A DNA stretch of 64,000 nt from Bradyrhizobium barranii subsp. barranii. GTDB taxonomy: Bacteria; Pseudomonadota; Alphaproteobacteria; Rhizobiales; Xanthobacteraceae. This document shows, in pieces, positions 4,000-30,911 of this stretch (positions are counted from its first letter, which is position 1; the number at the start of each line of letters is the position of its first letter). The notes below the pieces were generated by a model. The model made no database searches. It had not been told where the DNA came from and saw nothing but the letters and a program-made list of their open reading frames with translations. The DNA lies in the NCBI RefSeq assembly GCF_017565645.3, contig NZ_CP086136.1, forward strand, positions 3,083,501 through 3,147,500. Reading direction: 5' to 3'. The translations under genes and the position numbers were made by a program.

Positions 4000-4658
4000 A
4001 CAACTGGGTTTGGCCTGTCACCCTTTACCTTGGTAAGGGCCTTTTGGTTACTTTGTGGATCTCGCTGCTCACCGTCATTTTGGCGACAATGCTTGGTCTC
4101 CTGATCGCGGCGCTGTCGCAAAGCACGCTCACGTTCGCGCGCTTTGTCGGACGGCTTTACGTTGAGTTGTTCCGCGGCGTGCCGTCGCTTATGATACTCC
4201 TCTTCGTGTTCTTTGCCCTTCCGCAAATTGGTCTCCGCACGGGCCCACTCACGGCCGCAATAATCGGATTGGGGCTCTGGGGCGGGGCGAACATCGGTGA
4301 GGTCTTTCGAGGCGCCTTGGATTCAATTCCACATCGCCAAGAGCAGGGCGCCCGAGCGCTTGGCTTGAGCGCAACGGAAGCGCTTGTGTTCGTCATTTTG
4401 CCACAAGCATTTCGGCGTGCGTTGCCGCCCTACGTCGGGCAGCTCACCGTTCTCGTCCAGGCGAGTGCACTGACGTCCGTTGTCGGCGTGTCGGATCTCT
4501 TGGGATCGGCGCGTCAAATGATAGAAAGACTAGCGTATGTCGGAACCGGAGACTCACACGCCATCGAGATCTATCTGGGCGTGCTGAGTATATTCTTTGT
4601 GATCTGCTACGCGTTGACCGGGCTGGCCAGTATGATCGAACGCCGTCTTCGAGTCTGA
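3996..4658 (+). CDS. Amino-acid ABC transporter permease, second subunit
   Basis: This is a 220-residue inner-membrane permease paralogous to the preceding gene, with five predicted membrane spans and the EAA-type loop GARALGLSATEALVFVILP near residue 115. It starts inside the stop of the first permease, so the pair is translationally coupled and presumably assembles one to one. It is the last intact gene of the operon. The DNA after it changes to conjugation-gene relics, so the operon end coincides with an island junction. Confidence 0.9.
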   Translation: MNNWVWPVTLYLGKGLLVTLWISLLTVILATMLGLLIAALSQSTLTFARFVGRLYVELFRGVPSLMILLFVFFALPQIGLRTGPLTAAIIGLGLWGGANIGEVFRGALDSIPHRQEQGARALGLSATEALVFVILPQAFRRALPPYVGQLTVLVQASALTSVVGVSDLLGSARQMIERLAYVGTGDSHAIEIYLGVLSIFFVICYALTGLASMIERRLRV

Positions 4659-21806: not shown

Positions 21807-24349
<2,543 letters not shown>

Positions 24350-25681: not shown

Positions 25682-25769
25682 AGGCTCTATACTTCCGCTG
25701 CAATAAACTACCTGTTGACACAGTATCGAATACGGCGGCTAGATGTAGTTGTCACGGTCTCTCGAATCA

Positions 25770-25935
25770 CAAGATAGAGAGCTAAGAGGGAAGCCGGTAC
25801 GGCCGAAAGCCAAAGCCGGCGCTGCCCCCGCAACTGTAAGCGGCGAGCCGCTGTCGATAGGGTCACTGGCGCAAAATCTCCGCGTCGGGAAGGCCAGACA
25901 GCGGCAATAACCCGCGAGCCAGGAGACCTGCCGCG
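25770..25935 (+). promoter_or_regulatory. Cobalamin (B12) riboswitch
   Basis: The order of conserved pieces fits the cobalamin aptamer: GGGAAGCCGGT near 25792, then GCCCCCGCAACTGTAAGCGG around 25825-25845, GGTCACTGGC at 25861-25870, GGGAAGGCC near 25888, AACCCGCGAGCC, and the B12 box AGCCAGGAGACCTGCCG at 25917-25933. It lies on the plus strand, 115 bases before the likely nrdD start. Known biology: such aptamers repress genes when adenosyl- or other cobalamin is abundant. Here that would favour the B12-independent anaerobic reductase when B12 is short. Confidence 0.9.
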
Positions 25936-25948
25936 ACAACAACAGAGT

Positions 25949-26010
25949 CCTCGGGCGGGGTGTCCCGGTGGTCGCTTGCCGGCAGTCGGCCGCCGAGGGC
26001 GGCTCGTTTT
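25949..26010 (+). terminator. Putative riboswitch expression platform (antiterminator / terminator)
   Basis: GCCGCC-GAG-GGCGGC followed by TCGTTTT at 25989-26010 can form an intrinsic terminator. The segment CCTCGGGCGG at 25949-25958 is complementary, with one bulge, to CCGCCGAGG at 25990-25998, so it could act as an antiterminator. Both lie between the B12 box and the reductase start. Seen in sequence; mutual exclusivity is inferred. Confidence 0.6.
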
Positions 26011-26050: not shown

Positions 26051-28093
26051 ATGCCGATGTCTGGTCTGGGTCAAAGCAATTCTTTGCAAGCCGCATTGCC
26101 GCGCTCGATCGTCAAACGCGATGGCGGCACGGTTGTGTTCGATGCCGGCAAGATCCGTTCTGCGATCGCCCGCGCGGGACGGGCGACCGGCGAGTTCGAC
26201 GACGAGGCGGCCGGCAGGCTCGCGGGAGAGACTATCAAGGTCATCGCGCACCGCTTCGCCGGCGCAACGCCGCAAATTGAAGAGGTGCAGGATATTGTCG
26301 AGCAGGTGCTGATCGCGGCCGACTATTTCGCCACTGCGCGAGCCTATATCGTCTATCGCGAGAAACGCGGACAGGCGCGCCAGGACCACAAGGCGATGGT
26401 TGATGTCGCCGCTTCCATCAACGAGTATCTCGAACGTACCGACTGGCGCGTGAATGCCAACGCCAACCAGGGCTATTCGCTGGGCGGCCTTATCCTGAAC
26501 CTCTCGGGCAAGGTCGTCGCCAACTACTGGCTGTCGCACATCTACCCGCCGGAGATCGGCCGCGCCCATCGTGAAGGCGACATCCATATCCATGACCTCG
26601 ACATGCTCGCCGGTTATTGCGCCGGCTGGTCGCTGCGCACGCTCTTGACCGAGGGACTGAACGGCGTGCCCGGCAAGGTCGAGGCCGGCCCGCCGAAGCA
26701 TCTGTCGAGTGCGGTCGGGCAGATCGTCAATTTCCTCGGCACGTTGCAGAACGAGTGGGCGGGCGCGCAAGCCTTCAGTTCGTTCGACACCTACATGGCG
26801 CCGTTCATCCGGAGGGACGGCTTGAGCTACGGCGACGTACTGCAATCGATCCAGGAGCTCATCTACAACCTCAATGTCCCCTCGCGCTGGGGTACGCAGA
26901 CGCCTTTCACCAATCTCACCTTCGACTGGACCTGCCCGGAGGACCTGCGCGATCAGGTGCCGGTGATCGGCGGAGAGGAGATGGATTTCACCTATGGCGA
27001 CCTGCAGTCCGAAATGGACATGATCAACCGCGCCTATATGGAGGTGATGACGAAAGGTGACGCCAAGGGCCGTGTATTCACCTTTCCAATCCCGACCTAC
27101 AACATCGCTGCGGATTTCCCGTGGGAGAGCGAGAACGCTGATCGCCTGTTCGAGATGACGGCGAAATACGGCCTGCCCTACTTCCAGAACTTCATCAATT
27201 CCGAGCTCAAGCCGAACATGATCCGCTCGATGTGCTGCCGGCTACAGCTCGATCTCACCGAGCTGCTCAAGCGCGGTAACGGCCTGTTCGGCAGCGCTGA
27301 GCAGACCGGCTCTATCGGTGTGGTTACCATTAATTGCGCTCGCCTCGGCTATCTGCATCGCGGCGACGAAGCGGGCCTATTCCATCGCCTCGATGCGCTG
27401 CTGGAAATCGGTCGCAACAGCCTGGAAATCAAGCGCAAGGTCGTGCAACGCTACATGGACGACGGACTTTTTCCCTATAGCAAGCGCTATCTCGGCACGC
27501 TGCGCAACCATTTCTCTACGCTCGGCGTCAATGGCGTCAACGAGATGATCCGCAACCTCACCGCCGATTGCGAGAACATCAGCACACCCTGGGGCCATGC
27601 CTTTGCGGTACGGCTGCTCGACCACGTGCGCGCGCGCATCGCCGCGTTCCAGACCGAAACCGGCATCCTGTTCAACCTCGAAGCCACGCCCGCGGAGGGC
27701 ACGACCTACCGCTTCGCGAAGGAAGACCGCAAGCGCTACCCCGGAATCTTGCAGGCCGGCACCGACGATCTCCCCTATTACACCAATTCGAGCCAGCTTC
27801 CGGTCGGCCTCACCGACGATCCGTTCGAGGCCCTTGAGCGCCAAGACGAGCTGCAACGCAAATACACTGGCGGTACGGTGCTCCATCTCTACATGGGCTC
27901 ACGCTTGTCCTCGGGCGCAGCGTGCAAGAAGCTCGTGCGGCGGGCGCTCTCAAATTTCCGCCTGCCCTACGTCACCGTCACGCCGACATTCTCGATCTGT
28001 CCGACGCATGGCTATCTCGAAGGCGAGCATGCCTTCTGCCCGAAATGCGACGCCGAACGGCTCGCAGCCAAGCGGCATGCCGCCGCGCACTGA
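26051..28093 (+). CDS. nrdD: Anaerobic (class III) ribonucleoside-triphosphate reductase, main chain
   Basis: This is a 680-residue cytoplasmic enzyme reducing NTPs to dNTPs without oxygen or B12. It has an N-terminal ATP-cone (about residues 17-105), then DIHIHDLDMLAGYCAGWSL with the active-site Cys, RSMCCRLQLDL with the thiyl-radical Cys, and a C-terminal zinc site (CPTHG, then CPKC). Strikingly it ends there: the glycyl-radical loop that normally follows is missing and is encoded by the next small gene. I chose ATG 26051 (or 26057) rather than an upstream in-frame ATG at 25976, which lies inside the riboswitch terminator. The operon is nrdD, small nrdD, nrdG. Confidence 0.92.
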   Translation: MPMSGLGQSNSLQAALPRSIVKRDGGTVVFDAGKIRSAIARAGRATGEFDDEAAGRLAGETIKVIAHRFAGATPQIEEVQDIVEQVLIAADYFATARAYIVYREKRGQARQDHKAMVDVAASINEYLERTDWRVNANANQGYSLGGLILNLSGKVVANYWLSHIYPPEIGRAHREGDIHIHDLDMLAGYCAGWSLRTLLTEGLNGVPGKVEAGPPKHLSSAVGQIVNFLGTLQNEWAGAQAFSSFDTYMAPFIRRDGLSYGDVLQSIQELIYNLNVPSRWGTQTPFTNLTFDWTCPEDLRDQVPVIGGEEMDFTYGDLQSEMDMINRAYMEVMTKGDAKGRVFTFPIPTYNIAADFPWESENADRLFEMTAKYGLPYFQNFINSELKPNMIRSMCCRLQLDLTELLKRGNGLFGSAEQTGSIGVVTINCARLGYLHRGDEAGLFHRLDALLEIGRNSLEIKRKVVQRYMDDGLFPYSKRYLGTLRNHFSTLGVNGVNEMIRNLTADCENISTPWGHAFAVRLLDHVRARIAAFQTETGILFNLEATPAEGTTYRFAKEDRKRYPGILQAGTDDLPYYTNSSQLPVGLTDDPFEALERQDELQRKYTGGTVLHLYMGSRLSSGAACKKLVRRALSNFRLPYVTVTPTFSICPTHGYLEGEHAFCPKCDAERLAAKRHAAAH

Positions 28094-28106
28094 AAGGAGA
28101 CCACAG

Positions 28107-28298
28107 ATGAACGAATCCACTGCCCGTGCGACCAGCACCGATTCCGCGGTGACGCTCAGCGACGACGAGCGCCAGCCCTGTGAGGTCTGGACCCGCGTGA
28201 TGGGTTATCACCGGCCGGTGTCGTCGTTCAATCGCGGCAAGAAAGGCGAGCACAATGAGCGCAGGTTCTTCGCTGAAGCGCGCGTCGCGCTCGGCTGA
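28107..28298 (+). CDS. Separate glycyl-radical-domain subunit of anaerobic ribonucleotide reductase
   Basis: The 63-residue protein contains CEVWTRVMGYHRPVSSFNRG followed by KKGEHNERRFF, which is the C-terminal glycyl-radical segment of NrdD; the radical glycine would be Gly33. It has its own ribosome site (AAAGGAG, seven bases before ATG) 13 bases after the nrdD stop, so this is a genuine separate gene and not a sequencing frameshift. It overlaps nrdG by 44 bases. It presumably binds NrdD and is activated by NrdG, much as the spare-part protein YfiD/GrcA does for pyruvate formate-lyase; that parallel is my inference. Confidence 0.88.
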   Translation: MNESTARATSTDSAVTLSDDERQPCEVWTRVMGYHRPVSSFNRGKKGEHNERRFFAEARVALG

Positions 28299-28908
28299 AT
28301 TGCGGATTGGCGGGCTCGCCCGGCTGTCCACCTGCGACTGGCCGGGCGAGCTCGTGGCAACGGTGTTCTGCCAGGGCTGCCCTTGGTCGTGCGGCTATTG
28401 CCACAACCCGCATCTGATTCCGCCGAGGGGAGAGTCGGAAATCGCGTGGCCGGACGTGCTGTCTTTTCTCGACAGCCGTCGCAGCCTGCTCGACGGCGTG
28501 GTGTTCTCTGGCGGCGAACCCACCCTCCAGGCGGCGCTGCCGGACGCGATGCGTGCTGTGCGACGCGAACTCGGCTTCCGCGTCGGATTGCACACCGCAG
28601 GGCCCTATCCCACACGGCTGTCCGCCGTACTGCCGCTCGTCGACTGGATTGGCTTCGACGTCAAGGCTGCGTTCGATGATTACGCGCGGATCACTGGCGT
28701 CATTGGGAGCGGCATTAAGGCCAAGGCCAGCCTCGTGCGTCTGCTCGAAAGCGGCGTCGCGTGCGACATCCGCACGACGGTTCATGATGCCTTGCTGGAT
28801 CGCTCCGACCTGGCGCGTCTGGCGTCCGACCTTGTCGCGCTTGGCGTTCCTGCCCATCGGCTTCAGCCGTTCCGCGCGGCCGGATGCACGACCGCGAGCC
28901 TGCTTTAG
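28255..28908 (+). CDS. nrdG: Anaerobic ribonucleotide reductase activating protein (radical SAM)
   Basis: This is a 217-residue radical-SAM activase that generates the glycyl radical. The cluster motif CQGCPWSCGYCHN (CxxxCxxC: Cys at the fourth, eighth and eleventh positions of the segment) lies near residue 40, and the SAM-binding GGEPTLQ segment near 86. LSTCDWPGELVATVFCQGC matches the usual approach to the cluster. The start lies inside the small glycyl-radical gene, which implies tight coupling. The C-terminus (HRLQPFRAAGC) is typical. No lesion. Confidence 0.93.
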   Translation: MSAGSSLKRASRSAELRIGGLARLSTCDWPGELVATVFCQGCPWSCGYCHNPHLIPPRGESEIAWPDVLSFLDSRRSLLDGVVFSGGEPTLQAALPDAMRAVRRELGFRVGLHTAGPYPTRLSAVLPLVDWIGFDVKAAFDDYARITGVIGSGIKAKASLVRLLESGVACDIRTTVHDALLDRSDLARLASDLVALGVPAHRLQPFRAAGCTTASLL

Positions 28909-29072: not shown

Positions 29073-29435
29073 GTGCGCCGGGAGACCGGCAAGGAATAGA
29101 TGGTGGAAGTCCATTGCGATGAAGGTGTAGCGAACCACATCGGCCCCGAGCCGTGCGCAGGCGTCCGCGAGGGTGTCGGCGAAGCGTCGGTAGGGGAGCA
29201 TGCAGGCCAGCCATTGAGCCGCGAAACAGTGTTATCTCGGGAGCCGACGCTGTCCAAAGAGCGGAAGGCAATATGGGCGAGTGCGCAAACGCGAGCACCC
29301 GTCCAACCCGGCGTGGTCGTAGACCCTGGCATGTATGGAAGCTCCTTGTACGGGAACCGGGATATCTCCGGGTCGGCCATCTTCCTTCTCGGAGGAGATG
29401 GTCCGCAGCGGGAAGGCGAGGAGCTGTAGCCGCTG

Positions 29436-30911
29436 ATGCACGACACGGAGAAGTCTGACTCTGGCATAGTAGCTGAGAAGCCAACGAACAAAGCCGGATT
29501 ACTGGCGGCGGAGTGGGCGGAGCCAAGGCCGGGGACCAAGGGAAACGCGGAACAGCAGCGCATGCACCGGACACAGGGCCGGGCTCGCATGACTCAGTCG
29601 CTGGACCGCGTACGGACAGCCGCAAGGCTGAGGAAGAAGGACCGGTTCACCGCGCTCTTTCACCACATCAATGTCGATACACTGCGGGCGGCGTTCTTTG
29701 CGCTCAGGCGTAAGGCTGCTCCCGGAGTGGATGGCATGACGTGGGAGGACTACGAGGAAGATCTCGAGCCCCGGCTCGCCGATCTGCACAAACGGGTCCA
29801 ACGAGGAGCGTATCGCCCGCAACCGTCTCGCCGGACGTACATACCAAAGGCAGACGGCAAGCAGCGCCCGTTAGCGATCGCGGCTCTCGAAGACAAAATC
29901 GTCCAGGGCGCCACCGTCATCGTGCTCAACGCCATCTACGAAGGAGACTTCTGTGGCTTTTCCTACGGGTTTCGGCCCGGCAGAGGACCACATGATGCGT
30001 TGGACGCGCTCTGCACAGCGATCGAGACGCGGAACGTGAACTGGATCATTGACGCCGACATCCAAAACTTCTTTGGCGCAGTCAGTCAACCTTGGCTGGT
30101 TCGCTTCTTGGAACATAGGATCGGCGACAAGCGCATCATCCGCCTCATTCAGAAATGGCTGAAGGCGGGTGTTCTCGAAGACGGCGTCGTAGCCGCTGAT
30201 GACAGGGGAACGGGTCAAGGTTCGGTGATTTCACCGCTTCTCGGCAACATCTACCTGCACTACGCTCTCGACCTGTGGGCCAAACGCTGGCGACAGCGCG
30301 AGGTCTCCGGCGGCATGATCATCGTGCGTTACGCGGACGATGTAGTAGTCGGCTTTGAGCGCGAGGATGACGCACGTCGTTTCCTTGACGCGATGCGCGC
30401 GAGACTGGAGGAGTTCGAGCTGACGCTCCACCCGGCCAAGACCCGCCTGATTGAGTTTGGTCGCCATGCGGCGGCTCAACGCAAGCAGCGCGGACTCGGA
30501 AAGCCGGAAACCTTTGCGTTCATGGGGTTCACGTTTATCTGCGGCAAATCACGCCAAGGGCGCTTCCAGCTTCAACGGAAGACCCGTAGCGACCGCTTGC
30601 GAACCAAACTCCGCGAAATCAAGGAGGAGCTAAGGCGCCGAATGCACTGGCCGATCCCTGCACAAGGGAAATGGCTGAGGCAGGTCTTGACCGGCCACTT
30701 TGCGTACTTTGCTGTCCCGACGAATGGCCGAGCGCTCAATGCGTTTCGGTTCTATCTGACCGATCTCTGGAGGCGGACGCTTCGGCGGCGCAGTCAGCGG
30801 ACCTGTCTGACCTGGGATCGCATAACGCAGATCACCGATGACTGGCTCCCCAAGGCTCGCATCCTTCATCCATGGCCGAAGCTGCGCTTCGCCGTCAAAC
30901 ACCCGAGGTAG
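29436..30911 (+). CDS. ltrA: Group II intron reverse transcriptase/maturase
   Basis: The 491-residue protein has reverse-transcriptase blocks: RRKAAPGVDGMTWEDYEE near residue 90, YRPQPSRRTYIPKADGKQRP near 125, GFSYGFRPGRGPHDAL near 172, DADIQNFFGAV near 205, GTGQGSVISPLLGNIYL near 255 and the catalytic RYADDVVVGF near 300. A maturase-like X region follows (KLREIKEELRRRMH). No HNH endonuclease domain is visible at the C-terminus. A start at the later Met (MTQSLDRV) is also possible. Confidence 0.92.
   Translation: MHDTEKSDSGIVAEKPTNKAGLLAAEWAEPRPGTKGNAEQQRMHRTQGRARMTQSLDRVRTAARLRKKDRFTALFHHINVDTLRAAFFALRRKAAPGVDGMTWEDYEEDLEPRLADLHKRVQRGAYRPQPSRRTYIPKADGKQRPLAIAALEDKIVQGATVIVLNAIYEGDFCGFSYGFRPGRGPHDALDALCTAIETRNVNWIIDADIQNFFGAVSQPWLVRFLEHRIGDKRIIRLIQKWLKAGVLEDGVVAADDRGTGQGSVISPLLGNIYLHYALDLWAKRWRQREVSGGMIIVRYADDVVVGFEREDDARRFLDAMRARLEEFELTLHPAKTRLIEFGRHAAAQRKQRGLGKPETFAFMGFTFICGKSRQGRFQLQRKTRSDRLRTKLREIKEELRRRMHWPIPAQGKWLRQVLTGHFAYFAVPTNGRALNAFRFYLTDLWRRTLRRRSQRTCLTWDRITQITDDWLPKARILHPWPKLRFAVKHPR

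Follow-up and report, generated by a model that had tools for sequence, protein, structure and literature searches.

Comparison with described systems and layout of the locus

The closest described system is the class III ribonucleotide reductase consisting of a one-chain NrdD and its activase NrdG, which has the same ATP-cone, NRDD barrel, zinc site, glycyl-radical loop and radical-SAM activase as the system reported here, and the available parts of reviews and structure papers place the glycyl radical in NrdD itself. Small stand-alone glycyl-radical proteins have been described for pyruvate formate-lyase, namely YfiD (GrcA) and the Y06I protein of phage T4, which are expected to act in trans; the accessible part of this work states that such spare parts have been demonstrated only for pyruvate formate-lyase but may exist for other enzymes (PMC8683613). 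The T4-like phage ORF vs.6 is likewise stand-alone with a glycyl-radical match, but belongs to the Gly_radical family, and in the accessible part of the paper its authors guessed at a role in nucleotide metabolism (PMC1524935). One reductase made from two consecutive genes is also represented by NrdJa/NrdJb of Pseudomonas aeruginosa, whose genes lie 16 bp apart; as far as the available text goes, it differs in being a B12-dependent class II enzyme without a glycyl radical and with another break point (PMC4009431). The open-access literature searched contained no description of an NrdD with its radical on a chain of its own, or of such chains in phages, and older papers may mention the split. 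What is new here is the occurrence of the radical gene at sites unlinked to nrdD, in multiple copies, and in phages.

The window analysed here is a stretch of 64,000 nucleotides from Bradyrhizobium barranii subsp. barranii. It contains an operon on the plus strand in the order cobalamin riboswitch (25738–25949), nrdD main chain (26057–28093), a small gene (28107–28298) and nrdG (28255–28908). The main chain starts at 26057 (678 aa) or 26051 (680 aa), ends with a TGA codon at 28091–28093 and contains the NRDD catalytic domain, as matches above cut-off were obtained with PF13597 (577.8 bits), NF006126 (1125 bits) and TIGR02487. Its ATP-cone domain covers residues 17–105 (26105–26371; PF03477, E = 5.7e-22), and a CPTH...CPKC motif, which we take to be zinc-binding as in the NrdD family, is located at residues 648–664 at the end of the chain (27998–28048). 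This motif is of the C-H-C-C type rather than four cysteines, and its residues are invariant in an alignment of 24 relatives (A3). The small gene is preceded by a ribosome-binding site (AAGGAG, 28094–28099) 7 nt before its ATG at 28107, starts 13 nt after the nrdD stop codon in a different reading frame and ends with a stop codon at 28296–28298. It codes for a stand-alone protein of 63 aa with a glycyl loop (RVMGY), and its Gly33 (codon 28203–28205, within WTRVMGYHRP) is the presumed radical site. The following nrdG gene overlaps the small gene by 44 nt and codes for an activase of the NrdG2 type (TIGR02495, E = 9.8e-57; PF04055).

The loop expected in a class III NrdD is found only when both genes are taken together. 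Of the 562 positions of PF13597, the main chain covers 2–530 and therefore lacks the loop, and the small protein covers 530–562 (32.7 bits), both above the curated cut-off, so that the two proteins tile one family model. The window thus matches the same Pfam and NCBIfam models as the one-chain systems, but with the glycyl loop on a chain of its own. A first-pass annotation made from the sequence alone had already proposed this division of NrdD, with a main chain that retains the ATP-cone and ends just past the zinc site, a loop gene 13 nt downstream with its own ribosome site and an overlapping nrdG, and in all these points it was borne out. Its further claim that the catalytic cysteines remain in the main chain holds for one of them: C188 aligns with C125 of the Thermotoga maritima enzyme (4coi) and is invariant in alignment A3, as is C427. 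A candidate site of the radical cysteine is the SMCCRL motif (C393, C394), which resembles the T. maritima SCCR motif, yet is aligned several columns off. No other NRDD match was found in the 11.4 Mb of the own genome, in which two additional genes carry PF02867, the large-subunit domain of classes I and II, in full-length frames.

The 63-aa protein matched PF13597 only, with no match to the Gly_radical family at E values up to 1, and nine other stand-alone loops gave the same picture (PF13597 above cut-off, no Gly_radical match at E up to 0.01). Unlike YfiD/GrcA, it therefore belongs to the NRDD family, and because the main chain in the window lacks a loop of its own, the small part should be required rather than spare. 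The annotation had also suspected short NrdD-like entries in databases, and we indeed recovered 5642 matching small proteins (90% identity clusters, E ≤ 0.001); these homologues and the occurrence of the arrangement in many genomes argue against a chance split. RefSeq-derived plasmid records label such proteins of 63 and 66 aa as 'nrdD', as if they were the enzyme, which may mislead surveys of ribonucleotide reductases.

Distribution of the divided NrdD

Scanning GTDB with the small protein resulted in at least 585 pattern matches, at least 545 of which were confirmed, and the best 80 loci were analysed. At 75 of these best 80 of at least 545 loci, the loop has a small ORF to itself downstream of a truncated NrdD, which argues against a local frameshift in the window. 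The loop lies within the NrdD ORF at two of the best 80 loci, namely in a natural one-chain form from a Simkaniaceae genome (L054) and at a Massilia locus (L073), where it is in frame with the end of an NrdD broken into pieces and which was left out of the spacing and dN/dS calculations. At three of the best 80 loci (L008, L013, L034), no NrdD was found in the DNA around the loop. The gap between nrdD and the first ATG of the small gene ranges from −4 to 415 nt at 73 measurable loci, with a median of 34 nt and frame offsets distributed 29/21/23, and such variable gaps in all three frames argue against recoding.

Using the small protein as its query biases the GTDB scan towards split forms; samples free of this bias, which share a few genomes, were drawn with the Pfam family. 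In the Pseudomonadota sample, NrdD was present in 35 of 249 genomes, 11 with the split and 24 with the one-chain form (G181 and G241 were settled on DNA). The Alphaproteobacteria sample contained NrdD in 35 of 289 genomes, 26 of them split and nine one-chain (the nine include G294, which is partial, and G343; G389 was judged by coordinates only), and the Gammaproteobacteria sample, including the former Betaproteobacteria, in 37 of 369 genomes, with 27 split, seven one-chain and three partial or weak cases (G799, G947 and G970 judged by coordinates only). The split is therefore the commoner state in the samples of Alphaproteobacteria (26/35) and Gammaproteobacteria (27/34), whereas the one-chain form is commoner across the phylum (24/35). 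The prevalence of the split in these two class samples and at the best 80 GTDB loci excludes the local frameshift named in the first-pass annotation as a possible refutation. The co-occurrence check proposed there was run as well: in the Gammaproteobacteria, an adjacent radical gene accompanies 27 of 27 truncated NrdDs and none of the seven one-chain NrdDs. A radical gene is likewise present in all 26 alphaproteobacterial genomes with a truncated NrdD, and is adjacent in 24.

Unlinked and multiple copies in bacteria

In two Alphaproteobacteria (G340, G499), the radical gene is not next to the truncated NrdD but on another contig; in G499, it lies directly before nrdG and away from nrdD. Genome G250 carries four radical genes, one adjacent to nrdD and three on other contigs, and in the order of G310, seven of 12 genomes contain an adjacent copy and at least one unlinked copy. 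An eighth genome of that order (G1030; L215–L218) has four radical-loop genes on four contigs, with no NrdD match in the draft genome. Among the genomes that carry unlinked copies, many are draft assemblies made up of tens to hundreds of contigs. A loop match of another type on a separate 4.8-kb contig of G419 was excluded from the count of extra copies. A 4.3-kb contig of G307 contains a divergent loop-like ORF (L155:1815–2069; KYSRIMGYFQTISAANIGKRAEF) with a weak match below the family cut-off.

The surroundings were listed for 35 unlinked bacterial copies, and ten neighbours from nine phage-like loci were compared with PHROGs. Phage families of named function were recovered at eight of these nine loci, covering endolysin, helicase, Sak4-like annealing protein, primase and tail fibre, and the ninth (L278) showed phage families of unknown function. 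Other unlinked copies lie beside what we take to be ordinary chromosomal genes.

Phage copies

Scanning IMG/VR with the small protein of the window gave 184 pattern matches, 148 of which were confirmed, and the best 80 were analysed. Using tblastn with the NrdD of the window, we found no NrdD at 79 of these best 80 of 148 loci, the exception being L309, and tblastn with the NrdG of the window, a search that a distant NrdG could escape, found none at any of the 80. Among 50 whole IMG/VR records (8.7 to 183 kb) searched with the Pfam family, 49 contained the loop only, without NrdD, although the loop scores below the family cut-off in three of these 49, and most viral records may be fragments. 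Since nrdD or nrdG would often be expected beside the loop gene in misplaced host DNA, their absence argues against this origin. For 20 viral contigs, one ORF or a few, lying no more than 6 kb from the loop gene, were compared with PHROGs, yielding head, packaging, tail or lysis families in ten, replication, reverse transcriptase or transposase families in five, and none or unknown families in the other five. Phage-type reverse transcriptase genes (phrog_1423) occur within 6 kb of the loop gene on virus contigs L308 and L316.

The Gly-Tyr pair is kept in 79 of 79 viral loops, which is partly circular because the scan itself used this motif; selection is therefore the better evidence. Over a 40-codon core, with pairs that are not independent, dN/dS was 0.34 in the viral copies (194 pairs among 55 distinct sequences). 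Adjacent copies gave 0.22 and unlinked ones 0.24, and the value for unlinked type C copies was 0.055 (6 pairs; for type C, see below). In an annotated phage collection, only two records match: ANMV-1, where the matching stretch is annotated as an anaerobic reductase, and a record without annotation. The only PHROG match of the 63-aa protein is phrog_4132, a group of small phage proteins filed as of unknown function, for which a likely role can now be named. Phage versions thus exist of the NrdD loop and, according to the accessible literature, of the spare part of pyruvate formate-lyase (Y06I). We take this Y06I protein to be identical with ORF vs.6.

The unlinked copies, the presence of several copies and the phage copies without NrdD together point to a radical subunit that would work in trans. 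That it would also be exchangeable, as the first-pass annotation had put it, is supported only indirectly by the same three observations. Many alphaproteobacterial (L138–L141, L142, L143, L212–L214) and phage loop proteins (L302, L308, L310, L314, L316) have in common a C-terminal tail that lies outside the family model and ends in AAE.

Other lineages and evolutionary history

In Verrucomicrobiota, NrdD was present in 81 of 115 genomes, 28 of these 81 with a stand-alone loop gene by match coordinates, in a sample whose centre genome had been picked for being split and of which only part was checked on DNA. The check on DNA identified four loci of a type B and eleven of a type C (L261, L264, L270, L271, L275, L277, L279, L281, L282, L287, L288). 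In type C, the break falls within the zinc ribbon: the main chain stops there (..SICPVHGYIPGEHTECPLEA), and the small protein starts with MAKCGEKTEVYS, so that the last zinc-ribbon cysteine lies on the small chain; because the ribbon is divided between the chains, the zinc site would possibly be shared by the two subunits. Two genomes (G1079, G1106) contain stand-alone loops although their sole NrdD is a one-chain form. An extra C-terminal stretch (..QAPTLVV..) of thioredoxin-like look was noticed in the one-chain NrdDs of Verrucomicrobiota loci L243–L250, L256, L266, L290 and L291. A Chlamydiae MAG (P0130) codes for a one-chain NrdD with two tandem glycyl-loop motifs, which may be an assembly duplication.

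In a fourth type (D, L223), the divided enzyme is an E. coli-like NrdD that shares only 23% identity with that of the window. Its main chain ends at 4053 and is followed by a loop gene at 4069–4251 (60 aa; RRITGYLVGTLDRFNNAKRAEE), which overlaps nrdG. L223 represents an independent split in a deep second lineage of NrdD.

A tree of 93 barrel sequences, built without the loop and the zinc region, requires eight changes of the split state, or seven without one doubtful row. A single origin of all splits was rejected (AU test, p = 8e-55), but a common origin of types A (that of the window), B and C (both from Verrucomicrobiota), with later re-fusion allowed, was not rejected (p = 0.47), so that three origins of the split are no more than likely. 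A wider quick tree of 119 rows with added one-chain relatives required at least 19 changes of form, nine of them forced by well-supported branches. The loop is carried in the chain by 116 of the 120 best matches of a one-chain relative, and the linker from PTFSIC to W.R..GY measures 28 to 72 residues in the first 45 one-chain relatives listed. We initially considered the one-chain forms in the group of the window as rare re-fusions, but dropped this view in the face of many one-chain relatives and frequent switching. From these trees, splitting and joining of NrdD is a recurrent process. The abundance of close one-chain relatives and the one-chain majority in the phylum sample indicate that the enzyme can function without the separation, which could be neutral.

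Proposed function and alternative explanations

We propose that the window codes for a two-chain class III ribonucleotide reductase with the 63-aa protein as radical subunit, for which any copy could serve, and assign a probability of about 0.85 to this reading of the sequences. In the proposed mechanism, the 678-aa NrdD would supply regulation, substrate binding and the catalytic barrel, and NrdG would put the radical on Gly33 of the small protein, as expected from the family. The small protein should form a complex with NrdD, in which its loop would enter the barrel and hand the radical to an active-site cysteine. As the radical chain is not covalently joined, any linked, unlinked or phage-encoded copy could serve. 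Oxygen would then cut the 63-aa instead of the 678-aa chain, and the damaged small protein could be replaced without remaking NrdD. Such an exchange would follow if the complex is reversible, and fits the trans and phage copies; we give it slightly less than even odds. The wider reading is that of a modular class III reductase with a shared, replaceable radical subunit, which was separated independently in several lineages, is dispersed in extra copies in some, and travels alone with many phages and prophages, unrelated among themselves, as a means of recharging (or controlling) the host reductase in anaerobic infection, as a nucleotide-synthesis counterpart of YfiD/Y06I. We regard this wider reading, including the purpose presumed for the phage copies, as an even bet.

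Trivial explanations of the two frames carry little weight. The chance that a one-chain nrdD was misread in sequencing or has recently decayed is practically negligible, because the same split recurs at 75 of the best 80 GTDB loci and on plasmids in seven other Bradyrhizobium records (95.5–98.2% identity). Programmed frameshifting or readthrough joining both frames into one chain would suit the short gap of 13 nt in the window, but is very improbable: the gap varies from −4 to 415 nt between loci and falls in every frame, the small gene of the window has its own ribosome site, and in G340 and G499 the two genes sit on separate contigs. On these grounds, we rejected a local frameshift, a sequencing error and recoding alike.

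A more serious competitor is neutral gene fission, by which the two proteins would form a tight permanent complex acting like the one-chain enzyme, with a radical subunit that is not exchanged. The frequent switching of form in the 119-row tree, by which the link may not matter, and the mostly adjacent genes (24/26 in Alphaproteobacteria, 27/27 in Gammaproteobacteria) speak for it, and we consider it a real possibility, although somewhat doubtful, because the unlinked and multiple copies, the pairing of the radical gene with nrdG in G499 and the phage copies fit only trans action. The unlinked and phage copies might alternatively serve for control by occupying the host NrdD or activase, thereby lowering or redirecting its activity. 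Phages often manipulate the nucleotide synthesis of their host, and the copies retain the loop on which NrdG would act; a blocker would need no glycine, however, and the kept glycine and purifying selection on the core make this role unlikely. If the two-chain reading is true, an enzyme central to DNA synthesis can have its radical carrier as a protein of its own, and evolution made and unmade this split of NrdD repeatedly. The split systems represent natural material for testing the spare-part idea, and spare-part-like glycyl-radical proteins beyond pyruvate formate-lyase would be a sequence-level answer to the question left open in the accessible part of PMC8683613.

Probable link to vitamin B12 and likely origin of the window copy

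The riboswitch upstream of nrdD (25738–25949, plus strand) was identified by Rfam model RF00174 with 125.9 bits (E = 3e-32) and probably lowers the expression of the operon in the presence of B12. The class III reductase is thus apparently under B12 control, which is consistent with labour being divided between it and a B12-dependent class II enzyme. Plasmid pHG1 of Cupriavidus necator H16 carries the split form, consisting of an NrdD of 676 aa and a small protein of 66 aa. According to the accessible part of PMC2864759, which cites Siedow 1999, C. necator cannot denitrify completely without nrdDG, and the defect of a strain lacking pHG1 is countered by B12; the same source gives nrdDG of C. 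metallidurans as Rmet_5137 and Rmet_5139. The locus number between these two probably belongs to the small gene.

NrdD was found in only one of 146 genomes sampled from the genus of the window, namely its own. Seven Bradyrhizobium plasmid records carry the region with 95.5–98.2% identity over at least 80% of the query, one of them typed as conjugative and with transposases nearby, and a group II intron was identified by Rfam downstream of nrdG (29106–29326). The rarity within the genus, the plasmid relatives and the intron suggest that the window copy was recently acquired on mobile DNA. A long ORF after the intron (29436–30911) reads like its reverse transcriptase, and two long ORFs on the minus strand (21807–24316) have the look of what is presumably an IstA/IstB transposase pair.
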